Source: Acidobacteriota bacterium (GTDB lineage Bacteria; Acidobacteriota; Terriglobia; Bryobacterales; Bryobacteraceae). From it: a DNA stretch of 64,000 bases. The notes under the pieces are model-generated. The model was given only the letters and a program-made list of their open reading frames with translations, was not told the origin of the DNA and searched no databases. The stretch is from positions 56,580 through 120,579 of the forward strand of contig VFZU01000005.1 in NCBI GenBank assembly GCA_016870995.1, written 5' to 3'. Both the position numbers and the translations under genes were made by a program. Shown piece by piece: positions 18,432-30,934 of the stretch. Each line of letters begins with the position of its first letter. Position 1 is the stretch's first letter.

Positions 18432-20345
18432 TTACTTCTTGTCGTCGACGTCAACAAACTCGGCGTCCACAACGTTGTCCTTCGGCTTTTCAGCGCCAGG
18501 AGCATCGGCGTTCGGGGCTGCACCGGGCTGAGCACCCGAGGCTTCCGTCTTGTACATCGCCTCGGCCAGCTTGTGGCTCGCCTGCGTGAGTTTGTCCGTT
18601 GCGCCGCGGATCTGTTCGGACGTAGCCGACTCGTCCTTCAGCACACGCTTCAGCTCTTCCAGTTCGCTCTCGACAGCCTTGCGGTCGTCGGCGCTCACCT
18701 TGTCGCCGTGGTCCTTGATCATCTTTTCGATGTTGTAGGCCATCGAGTCGCCTTGATTGCGGGCCTCGATTGCTTCCTTCTTCTTGCGATCGTCGGCGGC
18801 GTTCAGCTCGGCGTCCTTCGCCATCTTCTCCACTTCCTCTTTGCTCAAGCCAGAGCTGGAGGTGATGGTGATCTTCTGTTCGTTCTTGGTGCCCTTATCG
18901 GTGGCCGACACGTTCAAGATGCCGTTGGCGTCGATGTCAAACGTCACTTCGATCTGCGGCACGCCACGCGGCGCCGGCGGAATTCCAACCAGCTGGAACA
19001 CGCCCAGCAACCGGTTGTCCTTCGCCATCGGGCGCTCACCCTGGAAGATCTTGATGTCCACCGACGTCTGGCTGTCCGCCGCCGTCGAGAACGTCTCGCT
19101 CTTCTTGGTTGGGATCGTCGTGTTGCGCTCGATCAACTTGGTGAACACACCACCCAGCGTTTCGATACCGAGCGACAGCGGAGTGACGTCGAGCAACAGC
19201 ACATCCTTCACTTCGCCGCCAAGCACACCACCCTGGACAGCGGCGCCCACGGCCACCACTTCGTCCGGGTTCACGGTCATGTTCGGTTCCTTGCCGAAGA
19301 AGTTGCGCACCATCTCGCGCACCTTCGGGATACGGGTGGAACCGCCCACCAGCACCACTTCGTCGATCTTCGACGGAGACACACCAGCGTCCGAGATCGC
19401 CTGCTTGCACGGCTCGATCGTCCGCTGCAGGATCAAGTCGACCATCTGCTCAAACCGGCCGCGCGTCAGCTTCTTCTCAAGGTGCTTCGGGCCGCTGGCA
19501 TCCGCCGTGATGAACGGCAGATTGATGTCCACTTCGAGCTTGCTTGACAGTTCGATCTTCGCCGTCTCAGCCGCATCACGCAGCCGCTGCAGCGCCATCT
19601 TGTCCTTGCCGAGGTCGATGCCGTTTTCGTTCTTGAATTCTTCGATCAGCCACTGCACGATCCGTTCGTCGATGTTGTCGCCGCCGAGGTGCGTGTCGCC
19701 ATTGGACGACTTCACTTCCACCACGCCGTCGCCGACTTCGAGAATCGAGATGTCGAAGGTGCCGCCGCCGAAGTCATACACGGCGATCGTTTCGTCCTTC
19801 TTCTTGTCGAGGCCGTAGGCGAGCGCCGCCGCCGTCGGCTCGTTGATGATGCGCTTCACTTCAAGGCCGGCAATCTGCCCGGCGTCTTTCGTCGCCTGCC
19901 GCTGCGCGTCGTTAAAGTAAGCCGGTACCGTGATCACGGCCTCGGTCACCTTTTCACCGAGATAGGCTTCCGCCGCTTCCTTCAACTTCTTCAGAACCAT
20001 CGAGCTGATTTCGGGCGGAGCATACTGCTTGCCCTGTACTTCAATCCGCGCGTCCCCGTTGTCCCCACCCTTCACGGCGTAAGGAACCAGCTTGGCTTCC
20101 TCGCTCACTTCGTTGACGCGGCACCCCATAAAGCGCTTTGCGGAGTAAATGGTATTCTCGGGGTTGGTGACGGCCTGTCGCTTGGCCACCTGACCCACCA
20201 GCCTCTCTCCGCCCTTGGTGAACCCGATAACCGAAGGCGTCGTTCTCGCACCTTCCTGGTTGGGGATCACTACCGGCGAACCGCCTTCCATCACCGAAAC
20301 AACAGAATTGGTTGTTCCAAGGTCAATCCCAATGATTTTTCCCAT
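18432..20345 (-). CDS. dnaK: Molecular chaperone DnaK
   Basis: [22 protein letters not shown]...[17 protein letters not shown]...[19 protein letters not shown]. Confidence 0.98.
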
Positions 20346-20390
20346 ACGTTTGAATCCTCCGGCCTCATTTAGCCTACTCATAGTATTGAA

Positions 20391-20411
20391 TGTGAGTCTT
20401 CTGTTGTCAAG
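20391..20411 (-). promoter_or_regulatory. HAIR-like HspR operator overlapping dnaK -35
   Basis: Minus strand reads CTTGACA-ACAGAAG-ACTCACA; HAIR consensus CTTGAGT-N7-ACTCAAG (10/14 arm matches, exact 7-nt spacer); contains TTGACA, with TACTAT 19 nt downstream. Confidence 0.6.
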
Positions 20412-21120
20412 TCTTAGTGCACAAAATGTGAGGCCCACTCTCACCATTGCCGCCGCGTCCGATTTGGCCCCTCTGGAACCCCTCTTTCGCGAAGCCTTCC
20501 CGCTCGGCGATCTCACCTTCACCTTTTCCTCCTCTGGGGTTCTGGCCCGCCAGATCGAGAATGGTGCTCCTTTTGACCTGTTCCTTTCGGCTAACGAAGA
20601 CTTCATGCGGCAGCTGGTGAAGAAGAATAAGGTGATTCAGGAGGAGATCCAGGTCTATGCGATCGGGCGTATCGGGCTCTGGGCCAAGTCCGGGGCGATT
20701 CGCCAAATTACGGATCTTGATCAACCCGCCGTCCGCGTGATCGCGGTCGCCAACCCCCAACTCGCCCCTTACGGCCAAGCCGCCATGGCCGCGCTTTACA
20801 AAACAAAGCTCCTCGACAAGGTGAAGGACAAGCTGGTTTACGGCGAGAACATTCGCCAGACCCAACAATTCGCCGAAACCGGCAATGCGGACTGCGCGAT
20901 TCTCAGTTGGAGTCTGATCTATAACAAGGGCGGCTATCTGATTCCCGACAACCTGCATCCCGCCATTCGCCAGGTGGCCGCACCCATCCGGCAAAAGGGC
21001 AGCAAGAATACCAAGCTGGCCGACGCCTTCATCAATTTCCTGGTCTCACCTGTCGGCCGCTCGATCTTTGCCCAGCACGGCTTCAACCTGCTGCCGGCCG
21101 CTCCCAGCCTGCGCCGCTAG
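20392..21120 (+). CDS. Molybdate ABC transporter substrate-binding protein (ModA-like)
   Basis: [59 protein letters not shown]; start uncertain (GTG 20392 vs ATG 20332). Confidence 0.85.
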
Positions 21121-22172: not shown

Positions 22173-23705
22173 ATGGCAAAAATCACGCACGCTCTGTTGA
22201 GCGTCACCGACAAGACGGGTCTCGCCGAATTCGCACTCGGCCTATCGAAACTGGGAGTTGAACTGATCTCGACTGGCGGTACCGCCAAGCTCCTGCGCGA
22301 AACCGGCCTCGCCGTAAAGGATGTCAGCGAACTCACCGGCTTCCCCGAAATGCTCGACGGTCGCGTCAAGACCATCCATCCCCGCGTTGCCGCCGGCGTA
22401 CTCGCCATGCGCGCCAAGCCAAACCATATGGCTTCGCTCGCCGAACACCAAATCCCCCTCATCGACATGGTCGTTGTTAATCTGTACGAATTTGAGAAGG
22501 CAGCCGCCAAGCCCGGCGTCACCCACGAAGAACTCATTGAAAACATTGACATTGGCGGCCCCACCATGATTCGCGCCGCCGCCAAAAACTACCAGGACGT
22601 CGCCGTCGTCACCCGGTCTGAGGACTACCCGTCCCTGCTCGCCGAGCTCGAATCAAACGAAGCCAATCTGTCAGCGACTACCCATTGGGATCTGGCCAAG
22701 AAGGCTTTCTCCACCACCGCTGCCTACGACGCCGCGATCACCCGCACCCTCGAGCAGATCCCCACCCCAGTCGCAATGCCCGACCGCCTCGTCATCAACG
22801 TCGCCAAGAAGATCCCTCTGCGCTATGGTGAAAACCCCCACCAGTCCGCCGCCCTCTACGCTGCCGGAAAACACGGCATCGCCAACGCCACCCAACTCCA
22901 GGGCAAAGAACTCAGCTACAACAACCTCGTCGACCTCGATGCCGCCTGGCAGTTGATCTGCGAATTCGACCTGCCTTCGAGCGCCATCATCAAGCACACC
23001 AACCCTTGCGGCTGCGCCAGCGCCACAACTCTCGCCGAATCCTATCGCAAGGCCTTCGCCGCCGACCCCATCAGTGCCTTCGGCGGCGTGCTTGCCTTCA
23101 ACTGCGAAGTCGATGCCGAGACGGCCACCGAAATCGCCAGGACCTTCATCGAAGCCGTCGCTGCCCCGGGCTATTCAAACGAAGCCAGTGCAATCTTAAG
23201 CGCCAAGAAAAACCTGCGTTTACTTGTAGTTGCGCCCGGTGGGCTGGATGAGCCGGTCGTGAAGACCATCACCGGCGGCTACCTCGTACAAAGTGCAGAC
23301 CGCAAGCCGTACATCCGCTCTGAAGCAAAGGTGGCCACCGCTGTTGCCCCCACCGAAGCCCAGTGGGTGGCCCTCGAATTTGCCTGGCGCGTCGTGAAGC
23401 ACGTCAAATCGAACGCGATCGTCTATGCCACCGATGGCCAATTGATCGCCGCCGGCGCAGGCCAGATGAGCCGCGTTGATAGCGTCAAGTTCGGAGCCTC
23501 CAAGGCAATCCTCCCGCTCGAAGGCTGCGTGGTCGCGAGCGACGCCTTCTTCCCCTTCCCCGACGGGCTTGAAGCTGCGGCCTCTTTTGGCGCGAAGGCC
23601 TTCATTCAGCCCGGAGGCAGCGTGAAGGACGAAGAAGTCATCGCCGCCGCCAACCGCCTCGGCGTTGCCATGATTCTCACCGGCTACCGTAACTTCCGTC
23701 ACTAA
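22173..23705 (+). CDS. purH: Bifunctional AICAR formyltransferase/IMP cyclohydrolase
   Basis: ALLSVTDKTGLAEFA; RVKTIHPRVAAGVLA; LRYGENPHQSAALY; KHTNPCGCA; QPGGSVKDEEVIAAA. Confidence 0.97.
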   Translation: MAKITHALLSVTDKTGLAEFALGLSKLGVELISTGGTAKLLRETGLAVKDVSELTGFPEMLDGRVKTIHPRVAAGVLAMRAKPNHMASLAEHQIPLIDMVVVNLYEFEKAAAKPGVTHEELIENIDIGGPTMIRAAAKNYQDVAVVTRSEDYPSLLAELESNEANLSATTHWDLAKKAFSTTAAYDAAITRTLEQIPTPVAMPDRLVINVAKKIPLRYGENPHQSAALYAAGKHGIANATQLQGKELSYNNLVDLDAAWQLICEFDLPSSAIIKHTNPCGCASATTLAESYRKAFAADPISAFGGVLAFNCEVDAETATEIARTFIEAVAAPGYSNEASAILSAKKNLRLLVVAPGGLDEPVVKTITGGYLVQSADRKPYIRSEAKVATAVAPTEAQWVALEFAWRVVKHVKSNAIVYATDGQLIAAGAGQMSRVDSVKFGASKAILPLEGCVVASDAFFPFPDGLEAAASFGAKAFIQPGGSVKDEEVIAAANRLGVAMILTGYRNFRH

Positions 23706-23716
23706 GAGGCACAATA

Positions 23717-24292
23717 GTGTTCATGGTCAAACCCATGAGCCGCCGTGCGGCAATCTTCACAACTGCGAGCCTGGCGCCTGCGCAAACCAGCGCTTCCGAC
23801 CTCGATCGCGTCAAGGTCGGCGCCGCCGCGCCCGCCTTTGAATTGCCCTCCGCCTCAGGGGGCAAGCTGAGTCTTGAAAGCCTGAAGGGCAAGAACACAG
23901 TGCTCGTGTTCTACCGCGGCTATTGGTGACCCTATTGTGCAACGCAGCTAGTTGAGCTGCACAGCCTACTGCCCGCCAACCTGCAGGCGAACACCAACAT
24001 CGTCGCGATCGCTCCTGACCCGCTCGAAAAACTCCGCGACATCATCCCCAAGGTCAAAGCCAAGACTTCCGACAAGTTTCTGATCACACTGCTCGCTGAT
24101 GCCGATCACGCGGTGATTGATCGCTATGGGTTGTTGAACGAACAAGCCGTAACCAGAGGACGGTTTCTTCCGCATCCGACAACCTATGTGCTCGACAAGC
24201 AAGGCATCGTGCGCTGGAAGTTCACCGAGAAGGATTACAAGATTCGCCCGACCAACGAGGCGATTCTGACTGAACTGAAAAAGCTGCCCTAG
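23717..24292 (+). CDS. Probable selenoprotein: AhpC/TSA peroxiredoxin-like protein with in-frame TGA (Sec71) at 23927-23929
   Basis: 192 codons (incl. stop) in one frame; VLVFYRGYW[TGA]PYCATQLVELHSLLP...IVAIAPDPLEKLRDI...DADHAVIDRYGLLNEQAVTRGRFLPHPTTYVLDKQGIVRWKFTEKDYKIRP*; TGA sits where homologues have the catalytic Cys (RGxWCPxC); AAGAGG SD-like 7 nt before GTG 23717. Confidence 0.8.
23944..23960 (+). promoter_or_regulatory. Candidate bacterial SECIS hairpin
   Basis: GCAGCT-AGTTG-AGCTGC: perfect 6-bp stem, 5-nt loop with GU, 14 nt after the TGA. Confidence 0.6.
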
Positions 24293-25821: not shown

Positions 25822-26613
25822 TTATCGAAAGTGGTCCCAACCCTTGGGCGGCAAGGGCGAACCTGGGCGTCCCGCCACCACAATTCCAATCTCGTGAAAG
25901 GGTTTTCCCAGCGGCTTGGGGCTAGCCACTAGCAGCTCATAATCTTCGCCATGGTGCCAGGCCTGTTCAAGCGTCGCACCGCGATGGATTGGTGGCGCGG
26001 CGGTGATCTCGCAGGTCACGCCAGAGGCGAGCAGCATCCGGTCCAGGTCCATTGAAAGACCATCGGTGATGTCCATCGCCGCATGCGCGTTCGCTCTCAC
26101 CGTCTCGATCAAATCAAGTCGTGGCTTGGGCCGCTTCTTCCAGATGCCAAGGGGGCCGCTCACATAAAGCCGGTCGCCCGGCTTTGCGCCGCTGCGCAGG
26201 ATGGCCTTACCTTTGGGCACCGAGCCACAGAGAACTACATCTACGTGTACTTTGTCGCTGCGGGAGAGATCTCCACCCGCAAGTGCAATCTTGTGAGAGA
26301 ACACGCCGCTGAAGAATGGCTTGACGAAGTCCGGGTCTGGTACAGCCAGAGAGATCAAGGCAAAGCGGGGCGTGGCGGCCATGGCGGCCAGATCTGAAAC
26401 ACCGCGAGCCATCGCCTTGTAGCCCACTTCGCGGGGTGTGTAATCAGGCAGCGTGAAGTGGCGGCCTTCGATTGTGAAGTCTGTAGTGAAAACCAGATCT
26501 TCACCACGTGAAGGGCGATACACGGCGCAATCATCGCCAATGCCTACTTCGATTCCCTCGCCAAAGCGGGGAGCCCGCTTGCGAATCCAATCAATGAGGC
26601 CACGCTCGTTCAT
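25822..26613 (-). CDS. thiL: Thiamine-monophosphate kinase
   Basis: GIGDDCAVYRPSRGEDLVFTTDFTIEGRHF; GDRLYVSGPLG; AMDITDGLSMDLDRML; HHGEDYELLVA. Confidence 0.9.
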   Translation of the reverse strand: MNERGLIDWIRKRAPRFGEGIEVGIGDDCAVYRPSRGEDLVFTTDFTIEGRHFTLPDYTPREVGYKAMARGVSDLAAMAATPRFALISLAVPDPDFVKPFFSGVFSHKIALAGGDLSRSDKVHVDVVLCGSVPKGKAILRSGAKPGDRLYVSGPLGIWKKRPKPRLDLIETVRANAHAAMDITDGLSMDLDRMLLASGVTCEITAAPPIHRGATLEQAWHHGEDYELLVASPKPLGKPFHEIGIVVAGRPGSPLPPKGWDHFR

Positions 26614-29219
26614 TCGATAACCAGGCCGCTCGGCAACTCCTCGCCAAATACACGGCCCAGAGCGGCCAATTCGTCCTGACCCTCTCCTTCGAGCATGGCC
26701 AGCAGTTGCGCTTTTTTCGGATGAGATTCAAATGCCTTCTCGATCAGTGTGATCGTCGCCGGTGGTAGGTCTCGCGCGACGTCACCGGTGTGACGTGCCA
26801 TCGCGGCCATCGCCTCAGAGGCGTCGCCGAAGGACAGTACCTGATCGATCCAGCGCGTGACCGTGGTGGATGGAATCACCAGGTTGTTCGGGCCATAGAG
26901 CAGCTTGCGAGCTCCCAATCGGCCCAGGCACCACATCTCGCTGGCCGAATAATCTTTGGCGCGGATGCGCTTCAGCAGGCCATTGCCCAGCTCGGTCTTG
27001 ATGCCTACTGGCAGCAGTTCAAGCGAGCTGGCGCAGCGCCACATCTCGCGGGCGAGCGAGGGGTTGAGGCGCTTGGGCTTCGCGCCTTTCGGGATCAGCG
27101 CGCCCGAGAGGCGCTGATAAAGATCCTGTTGTTGATTGCGGTTTAGGCCGCCCGAGACGCGGCCAGAGAAGATCCACCAATCAATTTCATTCTGGGCCTG
27201 ATTGCCAAATACGAGGCCTGAAGCAAAGATCCGCCGGGCCTGTTCAATTCGCAGATCGTCACCCGAGGCACCGAAGCCAGGGCGCAGGCAGAGCCCACAA
27301 AGATTGAGCCAGCGCAGTTCGTGCGCCGCCGACTTCTTGCGGCCTTCAGCGCACTCGAGAAAGACATCGGCCAACTTGCGAATGGCACTCAGCGGCCAGG
27401 ACGCACGACCCAGCGAAAGGGCTTGTTCGAGCTTTTGCGGCAGCGCTTCGGGCTCGATCGAAAAGCCGCCCGAGAAGGTTTCACGAACCAGTTCGCACGC
27501 CGTTGCCAGCGCCGATTCCGCAACCGTCGCGGTGGGCTTCGCTACCGTGCTCTTCGCGCTTTGGCGGCGCAACTCAAACTGCAGACGCCAGGAGTGTTCG
27601 CTCACCTTGCTGACGGCAAAAATCTCAAGCGTGCCAACCTCGGTAAGGTGCGCGCGCAACCGTACCGGCACGTTGCGCTCCATGTTCGGGTTACCGAAAC
27701 GGATTACCGCATCGAGGGGCGCATGCAGGTGGAAGCCTTCGTCGATCTCGACACCCTGCCCGGCTACATCTTCCGTCCGCGTCAGCGAGCTGTAGAGCTT
27801 GAAGCTGACCAGCTTGTTGGCCAGCAGGTTCAGGCCTGGAACATCGAGCTCCAGGGTCGAACCTTCTTCAGAGCCACGCGGCACAAGGCAGATCGACTGC
27901 CTATCTCCCGTGCCGATAAAGTAAGCGCGCGGCAGGCCGCCACGCACCAGAAAGCCATGGCCACCACCGCGAACATGCGCGTAGTAAGCAGCCCCCTGGG
28001 CCACCGCCAGATCTAGATCCTGATTTTCAAAAACCAGCGGAGTGGTACCGAACCAACTGCCCACCACGCTCTTCACGCGCTCCCGCAACAGATCGGGGAT
28101 GAAGAAGCCGCCGTTGAACAGGATCGCGTCGGGCCGCACATTGCCGCTCTCGCTCAAGAACTGGGCGAGGTGTTTCGTAACTGCAGGGTCGCTGACGTAA
28201 GGCAGGCCCAACTCGCGAAAGGCCGACTTCTTGTCGACATTCGGCGTGTCGGTTAGCGCGCACTCGGGTAGAAAACCATCGAGCGCCAACTCGCGGGCCT
28301 CGGCTCGTGTGATCTCCGTACGCAGCGTGCCACCAATCAGCGAGCTGCCCGCACCAAGCACGGTAATCTCGACAGATTCCGGGCCGTCGGCTGAAAGAAG
28401 TTTTTCCTTGGCTGCGGCGCATTGCCGTCGCAAAGCGCTGCGCTGGCGCAGAGAGAGCTGCGTGTTGAGCTTGGTCTCCACCAGCCAGCTCAACGTTAAA
28501 TCGAGATTGTCGCCGCCCAGCAGCAAATGCTTGCCTACTGCCGTGCGGGTGAATTGAACGTGGTCGCCAGTACGGCTCACCTGGATCAACGTAAAGTCTG
28601 AGGTGCCGCCGCCGACGTCGACGATCAGCACGTTCATGCCGTCGGTGAGATTCTTCTGCGATTGCGAAAGGTGGCGCGCGATCCACGAATAGAAAGCTGC
28701 AGCAGGTTCTTCAATCAGCGTGAGCTTTTCCATGCCGGCCGCGCGTGCAGCCTGCACAGTTAACTCTCTCGCTTCTTCGTCAAAGCAGGCGGGTACGGTC
28801 AACACAACATCGTGGTCACCGATCGGCGAGCCATGCGCAGCCTTCCAGGCTCCCGCAATGTGCGCAAGATATCTTGTTGAAGCTTCAACCGGCGAGTAAA
28901 GCCTGCCGGCTTCCTGCGCGTCCCAGGGCAGAATCTTGGCATTGCGATCGACTTCACTGTTCGACAGCCAGCTCTTGGCGGCATAGACGCTCTTGGTCGG
29001 CACCAGCGCGCCTTGCTCACGCGCAAAAACGCCCACATACTCCTGCTGGTCGAGATAGAGAAAGCTGGGGAGTGTGCGGCGCTTTTCCTGCCTGCCTTGC
29101 GCCACGTACTGCTCGATGTCGAGCACCTGGATGGGAGTGTAATCGGCCTCGGCCGCCTCTACCGGGTCCACCCAGGCCAGGGCAGAATTTGTTGTTCCTA
29201 AGTCGATGCCAATCTTCAT
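26610..29219 (-). CDS. Hsp70 family protein with long C-terminal extension (possibly DUF3731-like)
   Basis: [60 protein letters not shown] overlap with thiL. Confidence 0.85.
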   Translation of the reverse strand: MKIGIDLGTTNSALAWVDPVEAAEADYTPIQVLDIEQYVAQGRQEKRRTLPSFLYLDQQEYVGVFAREQGALVPTKSVYAAKSWLSNSEVDRNAKILPWDAQEAGRLYSPVEASTRYLAHIAGAWKAAHGSPIGDHDVVLTVPACFDEEARELTVQAARAAGMEKLTLIEEPAAAFYSWIARHLSQSQKNLTDGMNVLIVDVGGGTSDFTLIQVSRTGDHVQFTRTAVGKHLLLGGDNLDLTLSWLVETKLNTQLSLRQRSALRRQCAAAKEKLLSADGPESVEITVLGAGSSLIGGTLRTEITRAEARELALDGFLPECALTDTPNVDKKSAFRELGLPYVSDPAVTKHLAQFLSESGNVRPDAILFNGGFFIPDLLRERVKSVVGSWFGTTPLVFENQDLDLAVAQGAAYYAHVRGGGHGFLVRGGLPRAYFIGTGDRQSICLVPRGSEEGSTLELDVPGLNLLANKLVSFKLYSSLTRTEDVAGQGVEIDEGFHLHAPLDAVIRFGNPNMERNVPVRLRAHLTEVGTLEIFAVSKVSEHSWRLQFELRRQSAKSTVAKPTATVAESALATACELVRETFSGGFSIEPEALPQKLEQALSLGRASWPLSAIRKLADVFLECAEGRKKSAAHELRWLNLCGLCLRPGFGASGDDLRIEQARRIFASGLVFGNQAQNEIDWWIFSGRVSGGLNRNQQQDLYQRLSGALIPKGAKPKRLNPSLAREMWRCASSLELLPVGIKTELGNGLLKRIRAKDYSASEMWCLGRLGARKLLYGPNNLVIPSTTVTRWIDQVLSFGDASEAMAAMARHTGDVARDLPPATITLIEKAFESHPKKAQLLAMLEGEGQDELAALGRVFGEELPSGLVIE

Positions 29220-30934
29220 GCCTTGCGTTCTCTCACACTAAACTCCAGCTTCCAACGATCGCCGCTAGCGGCGACACAAAACAACTCCAGCACGCCCGTG
29301 TCAGTGACATGCGATTCGAGCGTCACAGGCACCAAGCCACCCGGGGTTTTTTCAGTTGGCGCGAGCGTCATCTCCATCGCGGGTAACTCGCGCAGGTCGC
29401 GCGGCATCGGCTCCAGTAGTTCCCCGGGTTCATCTCCGCGGCGCTCGGTCGAACTGAAGATGCGAAACTCAACGGGCTCGCCGACGTACAAACCAAACTT
29501 GCGGCCGGGGAAGCGATGGGACATCCCTTCCTCCATGCCGAATGGTACGACCGTGAGCGCCTTCATTGGAGGCGGCAATCCGGGCACCGCCGGCATGGCG
29601 TCTTCGATACCGACGTAATAGCTTCTCGGCACACCGCCCCGGATGCGAATGCCCTTGCCTTGTCGTGCAAGGCCAAAGTAGGCCGCCCCTCGAGCGACAG
29701 CGAGCATCAGGTCTTCGCCATCGAGCACCTTGACAGGCTTGCCCAGCCAAAGGTTCAAACTGTTCAGAATTCGATCGCGTACGAGCCCCGCTTGCAGCAC
29801 GCCGCCATTAAAGAGCACATGCGTCGGTTGCGCTCCGCCCTGCTTTACAAAGTGGGCGAGATGAGCTGTGATCCGCGCATCGCTCGCATAAGGAAGAGCT
29901 AGTTCCTGCAGTGCCGATCGGCGCGCACGTTGCGGCGTTTCGTCGAGCGGCACATGCGGAAAGAACCCTTCGACGAGAATCCGTTCGACTTCCTCACGAG
30001 TGAGCTTCGATTTGATGGTTCCGCCGATGAGGCTGCTGCCGCGTCCGAGGATGGTGACCGGTTGCTCGGTTGTGGTGTTCTCAGGGTCGAGCAAAGCTTC
30101 TTTTGCGGCGCGGCATTGCTGCCAGAGCGCTTGCAATTGCTGCGCATCGAGCTTTGGCAGCTTCGTTTCCAGGTGGCGTGCCAGGGCAAGATCCATGTTG
30201 TCGCCGCCGAGCAGAATGTGGTCACCCACCGCGACTCGTTCGAGCTCCAGCGAACCGCCAGCATCCTTGACGTCGATCAGCGTGAAGTCTGTGGTGCCAC
30301 CGCCGATGTCGATGATCAGAATCCGGTCGCCCGGGCCGACGCGCTCGCGCCAGTCGAGATGTTTGGCGATCCAGGCGTAAAACGCGGCTTGCGGTTCTTC
30401 GAGCAGAACCATTTTTTCGATGCCAGCAGCGCGGGCGGCTTTCTCCGTGAGTTGACGCGCGACAGCGTCAAAGCTGGCTGGAACTGTGAGAACAACTTCG
30501 TGCTCCGCAAGAGGAGTCTGACCCGAGTGCTCCCAAGCGGCTGCCAGATGCTCGAGGTAAGCACGCGAGGCGGCAACCGGTGAAACCTTCTCAACACCTT
30601 CGGGCGCATGCACCGGCAGAAACGCCTCATTGCGATCCACACCCGCAAAGCTCAGCCAAGATTTCGCACTCGAAACCAGGCGGCCCATGCTCTCGGCGCC
30701 ACGGCGTCGGGCAAGGGCTCCGGTGACCCACGTCGGGTTCTCATCCCAAGGCAGAGAAGTCGCGCCGGGCGCAAAATCCTTGGGGCCGGGCAAATACAAG
30801 AAAGAGGGCAGCAGAGGTTCAGCGCGAACTTCATTTGGCTGTACGGCCTGCTCCACAAGAAAAGCCATTACGGTTTCACCATCCGCGTAAGCCAGCGCGC
30901 TGTTGGTGGTGCCGAGATCGATTCCAATAACCAA
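29216..30934 (-). CDS. Hsp70 family protein
   Basis: [61 protein letters not shown] overlap with the next Hsp70. Confidence 0.9.
   Translation of the reverse strand: MVIGIDLGTTNSALAYADGETVMAFLVEQAVQPNEVRAEPLLPSFLYLPGPKDFAPGATSLPWDENPTWVTGALARRRGAESMGRLVSSAKSWLSFAGVDRNEAFLPVHAPEGVEKVSPVAASRAYLEHLAAAWEHSGQTPLAEHEVVLTVPASFDAVARQLTEKAARAAGIEKMVLLEEPQAAFYAWIAKHLDWRERVGPGDRILIIDIGGGTTDFTLIDVKDAGGSLELERVAVGDHILLGGDNMDLALARHLETKLPKLDAQQLQALWQQCRAAKEALLDPENTTTEQPVTILGRGSSLIGGTIKSKLTREEVERILVEGFFPHVPLDETPQRARRSALQELALPYASDARITAHLAHFVKQGGAQPTHVLFNGGVLQAGLVRDRILNSLNLWLGKPVKVLDGEDLMLAVARGAAYFGLARQGKGIRIRGGVPRSYYVGIEDAMPAVPGLPPPMKALTVVPFGMEEGMSHRFPGRKFGLYVGEPVEFRIFSSTERRGDEPGELLEPMPRDLRELPAMEMTLAPTEKTPGGLVPVTLESHVTDTGVLELFCVAASGDRWKLEFSVRERKA

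Follow-up and report, generated by a model that had tools for sequence, protein, structure and literature searches.

The window, the whole stretch of 64,000 nucleotides that was analysed, very probably carries on its forward strand (23717..24292) a selenoprotein gene of the peroxiredoxin-like (Prx-like) UxxC family, with an AhpC/TSA domain (PF00578). The product has 191 residues when the in-frame TGA at 23927..23929 (forward strand) is read as selenocysteine 71 (Sec71, or U71). The frame, the Pfam match, the TGA and Cys homologues and the selenocysteine (Sec) machinery of the genome give high confidence, as far as sequence can, both in the Sec decoding of this TGA and in the family membership.

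The frame starts at GTG 23717 and runs for 70 codons to the TGA (23927-23929), then for another 120 codons to the TAG at 24290-24292. The TGA, in the motif WUPYC, is the sole break in this 191-codon AhpC/TSA frame. Standard ORF calling returns the 70-aa piece (23717..23929) alone, and the 3′ half is not listed among the ORFs of at least 60 aa. The gene annotation is corrected here, as standard calling cuts the 191-aa product to 70 aa. Many homologues across the Acidobacteriota have the same in-frame TGA and are open to the identical mis-annotation. A comparison of the read-through product with Pfam finds AhpC-TSA (PF00578, E value 2.3e-28) over residues 34-167, a single domain that spans the TGA. 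This confirms a first, sequence-only reading of the DNA, which had described one thioredoxin-fold AhpC/TSA domain interrupted by the TGA. No NCBIfam family scores above its cut-off for the 191-aa protein.

At least 29 further loci have TGA at precisely the homologous codon, and 7 loci have TGC or TGT there (the count excludes L022, which is the window itself). The site flagged by the sequence-only reading is thus occupied by Sec or Cys in homologues, and the alignment of an in-frame UGA with Cys is a mark of bacterial selenoproteins. The context of the TGA in the homologues is FYRG-x-W-U-P-[YFW]-C, with the close variants WUAYC, WUVFC and WUMWC. The nearest named relatives of the gene are in Bryobacteraceae/Bryobacter MAGs (Acidobacteriota), with 72-78% identity. 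A plasmid search gives distant matches alone, with less than 60% identity. In the homologue of the Bryobacterales MAG TGS_ACI1 (L059), the TGA and the hairpin described below are kept and the frame ends 63 codons on, which indicates a frameshift or an assembly error.

The source genome (5.7 Mb in 215 contigs, 99% complete) contains the entire set of Sec genes that the sequence-only reading had proposed to look for. The scores are 358 bits for selB (cut-off 242), 468 bits for selA (cut-off 268) and 369 bits for selD (cut-off 125). The tRNA-Sec (selC) scores 73 bits against a gathering threshold of 47, and its anticodon is tca according to ARAGORN. The earlier proposal that the UGA is decoded as Sec71 is supported by this machinery and by the conserved TGA/Cys site, and each refuting condition named in that reading was checked and failed. 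The selD gene of the same genome (L019, G000:C3:70063-70986) is also a TGA gene, with the canonical GUASK site (AAG-U-ASK). The gene at 23717 is therefore not the sole recoded gene of the genome.

In the best-match set, tRNA-Sec is present in nearly all of the 29 genomes, for TGA and Cys types alike, and the distribution test was therefore redone within the class of the window (46 genomes). tRNA-Sec is found in 10 of these. Single-TGA homologues are present in five of the 10 genomes with tRNA-Sec (G023, G073, G121, G210 and G257); the 36 genomes that lack tRNA-Sec have none (p ~2e-4, on the assumption of independent genomes, which holds only in part). The matches in G073 and G121 are weaker and were counted without position-by-position reading. 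A distant homologue at G210:C129:26143-26595 has two TGA and one TAG codons in frame, and is a pseudogene or a misread. Two other Prx-like genes are located next to a tRNA-Sec gene. One is a TGA gene with the motif FYRGYFUTGC (L068, G291:C60:96800-99600), about 40 nt from tRNA-Sec(UCA) on the opposite strand, and the other is of the Cys type with the motif FMCTQC (L069, G235:C152:7800-10200), about 110 nt away.

A bSECIS-like hairpin, GCAGCU-AGUUG-AGCUGC, is located just downstream of the TGA (23944..23960, forward strand). It has six base pairs and a 5-nt apical loop, AGUUG, which starts 20 nt after the UGA and has G at its second position. The published constraints for bSECIS elements are a loop of 3-9 nt, a stem of 4-16 bp, a G in the first two loop positions, a spacing of 16-37 nt and a minimum free energy of at most -7.5 (PMC13188914). 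The hairpin agrees with all of them, with a small margin in energy (-7.9 kcal/mol when folded alone), and in some relatives with the same hairpin the energy falls short of -7.5. The loop G[G/U] in the TGA genes also agrees with the published bSECIS model (PMC13188914).

This hairpin covaries in the TGA genes. The fourth pair is G-C in the window and A-U in near relatives, a double synonymous change. All six pairs are in register in 20 of the 26 TGA genes and in none of the seven Cys genes (p 4e-4), although the two groups code for similar residues there; the remaining six TGA genes have no hairpin in this register. Over the 26 TGA genes, 92.9% of the cells pair; shuffles reach 82.0% and slid partners no more than 38.5%. 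Double-sided changes are seen in 19 cells compared to 6.3 in shuffles, although these sequences are related and the counts are not independent events. In the seven Cys genes the pairing is not above that in shuffles. With longer context around the hairpin, the folding stability is no better than in shuffles. An Rfam search gives no match in the hairpin region, because bacterial SECIS elements are too variable. In the proposed mechanism, this hairpin would direct SelB and tRNA-Sec to decode UGA 23927 as Sec71. A 2006 survey credited few selenoproteins to the Acidobacteriota (3 families, 4 proteins; PMC1794560), and the hairpin is a further, well-supported bSECIS example with covariation for this phylum. 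The literature on selenoproteins of Bryobacter and Solibacter was also searched, and nothing relevant was found.

The active site is encoded by codons 23915..23938 (forward strand), RGYWUPYC, with U71 and C74 as the redox pair. Phe65, Arg67, Trp70, Sec or Cys71, Pro72, Cys74 and Arg177 are invariant in 29 sequences. C74 is the sole Cys of the protein, and U71-C74 is therefore the only possible internal redox pair. In the AF2 model (mean pLDDT 88.4), the nearest folds are those of Bcp4, PrxQ/Bcp and AhpE (3hjp, 2ywn and 5c04).

The conserved peroxiredoxin set is P-x3-T-x2-C (T/S) plus an Arg (PMC5719442). In the alignment with solved peroxiredoxins (2ywn, 5enu and M. tuberculosis AhpE), C74 is at the peroxidatic Cys and U71 at the Thr, R67 is at the Pro and P154 is at the conserved Arg. 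The Pro, Thr/Ser and Arg of a peroxiredoxin proper are thus replaced, by R67, U71 and P154 (P154 is Ala in some homologues, hence it is no strict signature). In the alignment with the thioredoxin-family protein 3hdc and with ResA, U71 is at the first Cys of WCxxC. The sequence-only reading had assigned the TGA to the peroxidatic Cys; homologues do have Cys or Sec at the TGA codon, but the peroxidatic position belongs to C74. Together, the alignments and the model describe a predicted peroxiredoxin fold that carries a thioredoxin-like UxxC active site.

This combination matches a described family, the Prx-like thiol:disulfide oxidoreductases, which are selenoproteins with PF00578 and UxxC or UxxU (PMC13188914 Table 1, PMC9312934, PMC1088965). 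The protein has the PF00578 domain and UxxC (WUPYC) in place of TxxC/U, and as a result of this match the gene joins a kind of selenoprotein known since the mid-2000s, as a further member. Cys homologues, a downstream bSECIS-like element and Sec-decoding bacterial hosts are shared as well. There is no categorical difference from that family; the N-terminal export-type signal and the acidobacterial branch are particular to the protein here, which is placed by domain and motif, not by direct comparison with the reference WP_010940744.1. Sec-containing peroxiredoxins (TxxU; first in Eubacterium acidaminophilum) also have an active-site Sec in a thioredoxin-fold AhpC/TSA domain. However, Sec is the peroxidatic residue in them, whereas here it is at the Thr position and C74 takes the peroxidatic one. 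Thiol-disulfide oxidoreductases of the ResA/TlpA type share the export signal predicted here and a WCxxC that aligns with WUPYC, but the fold and sequence of the window protein are nearer to PrxQ/Bcp and AhpE. The Bcp/PrxQ and AhpE peroxiredoxins provide the closest solved folds, but their active-site Pro, Thr and Arg are not conserved in the window protein.

The predicted function is that of a thiol:disulfide oxidoreductase, as in the literature. The selenolate of U71 would attack a disulfide, or possibly a peroxide, C74 would resolve the intermediate to give a U71-C74 selenenylsulfide, and a thiol reductant would then reduce it. Alternatively, the same selenoprotein might be a functional peroxiredoxin, in which U71 or C74 attacks peroxide and thioredoxin reduces the U71-C74 bond. 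Selenolates react well with peroxides, and the best fold matches as well as the PF00578 hit (E value 2.3e-28) point to peroxiredoxins. On the other hand, only the Cys of the Pro/Thr/Cys/Arg set is kept. Disulfide exchange appears to be the somewhat favored reaction, and peroxide reduction is a serious but lesser contender.

An export signal is predicted at the N terminus (23717..23791, forward strand; MSRRAAIFTTASLAPAQTSA). By inspection, the protein starts with MSRRAAIF, a twin Arg followed by a hydrophobic leader, and residues 1-30 have low pLDDT in the AF2 model. The relatives L052 and L053 combine SRR or R-R with a hydrophobic stretch, and L054 and L056 have a plain hydrophobic leader. The leader suggests that the protein is probably exported, possibly via Tat. 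More speculatively, the protein could represent an exported UxxC sub-branch built on the peroxiredoxin fold and frequent among Sec-decoding Acidobacteriota, with a peroxidase site converted to an extracytoplasmic site of selenol/thiol exchange.

The frame alone cannot identify the residue inserted at the UGA. An altered genetic code or a suppressor tRNA could insert an amino acid other than Sec, but TGA is an ordinary stop here, ending 17 of the 47 long frames of the window, and Cys at this site in homologues and a tRNA-Sec(UCA) in the genome make such a reading very improbable.

Downstream of the TGA, comparison of the window with six near relatives gives dN of 0.12-0.19, below that upstream of the TGA, and dS greater than 1.6 or saturated, a pattern that places the 3′ half under purifying selection at the protein level. 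A chance TGA is excluded by this selection and by the TGA at the same codon in the other loci, and a sequencing error is very unlikely, as the relatives with this TGA come from independent assemblies. The rival reading, in which the locus is an ordinary Cys gene with a nonsense mutation or an assembly error and yields a 70-aa fragment or a pseudogene, could draw on the existing TGC/TGT homologues but is refuted by the same TGA in many independent genomes, and also conflicts with the purifying selection, the Sec machinery and a TGA distribution that tracks tRNA-Sec, so that it is the least credible reading of all.

The selenoprotein gene lies 11 nt downstream of purH (22173..23705, forward strand), and a Shine-Dalgarno-like AAGAGG (23704..23709, forward strand, by inspection) is 7 nt before GTG 23717, both as the sequence-only reading had stated. 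The purH linkage was not found in the relatives that were read (L052, L053 and L054), and purH adjacency was dropped as a functional clue for this reason. Elsewhere in the window, two adjacent tandem Hsp70/DnaK-like genes (869 and 572 aa, judged from their translations) are located on the reverse strand at 26610-30934, apart from dnaK at 18432-20606.
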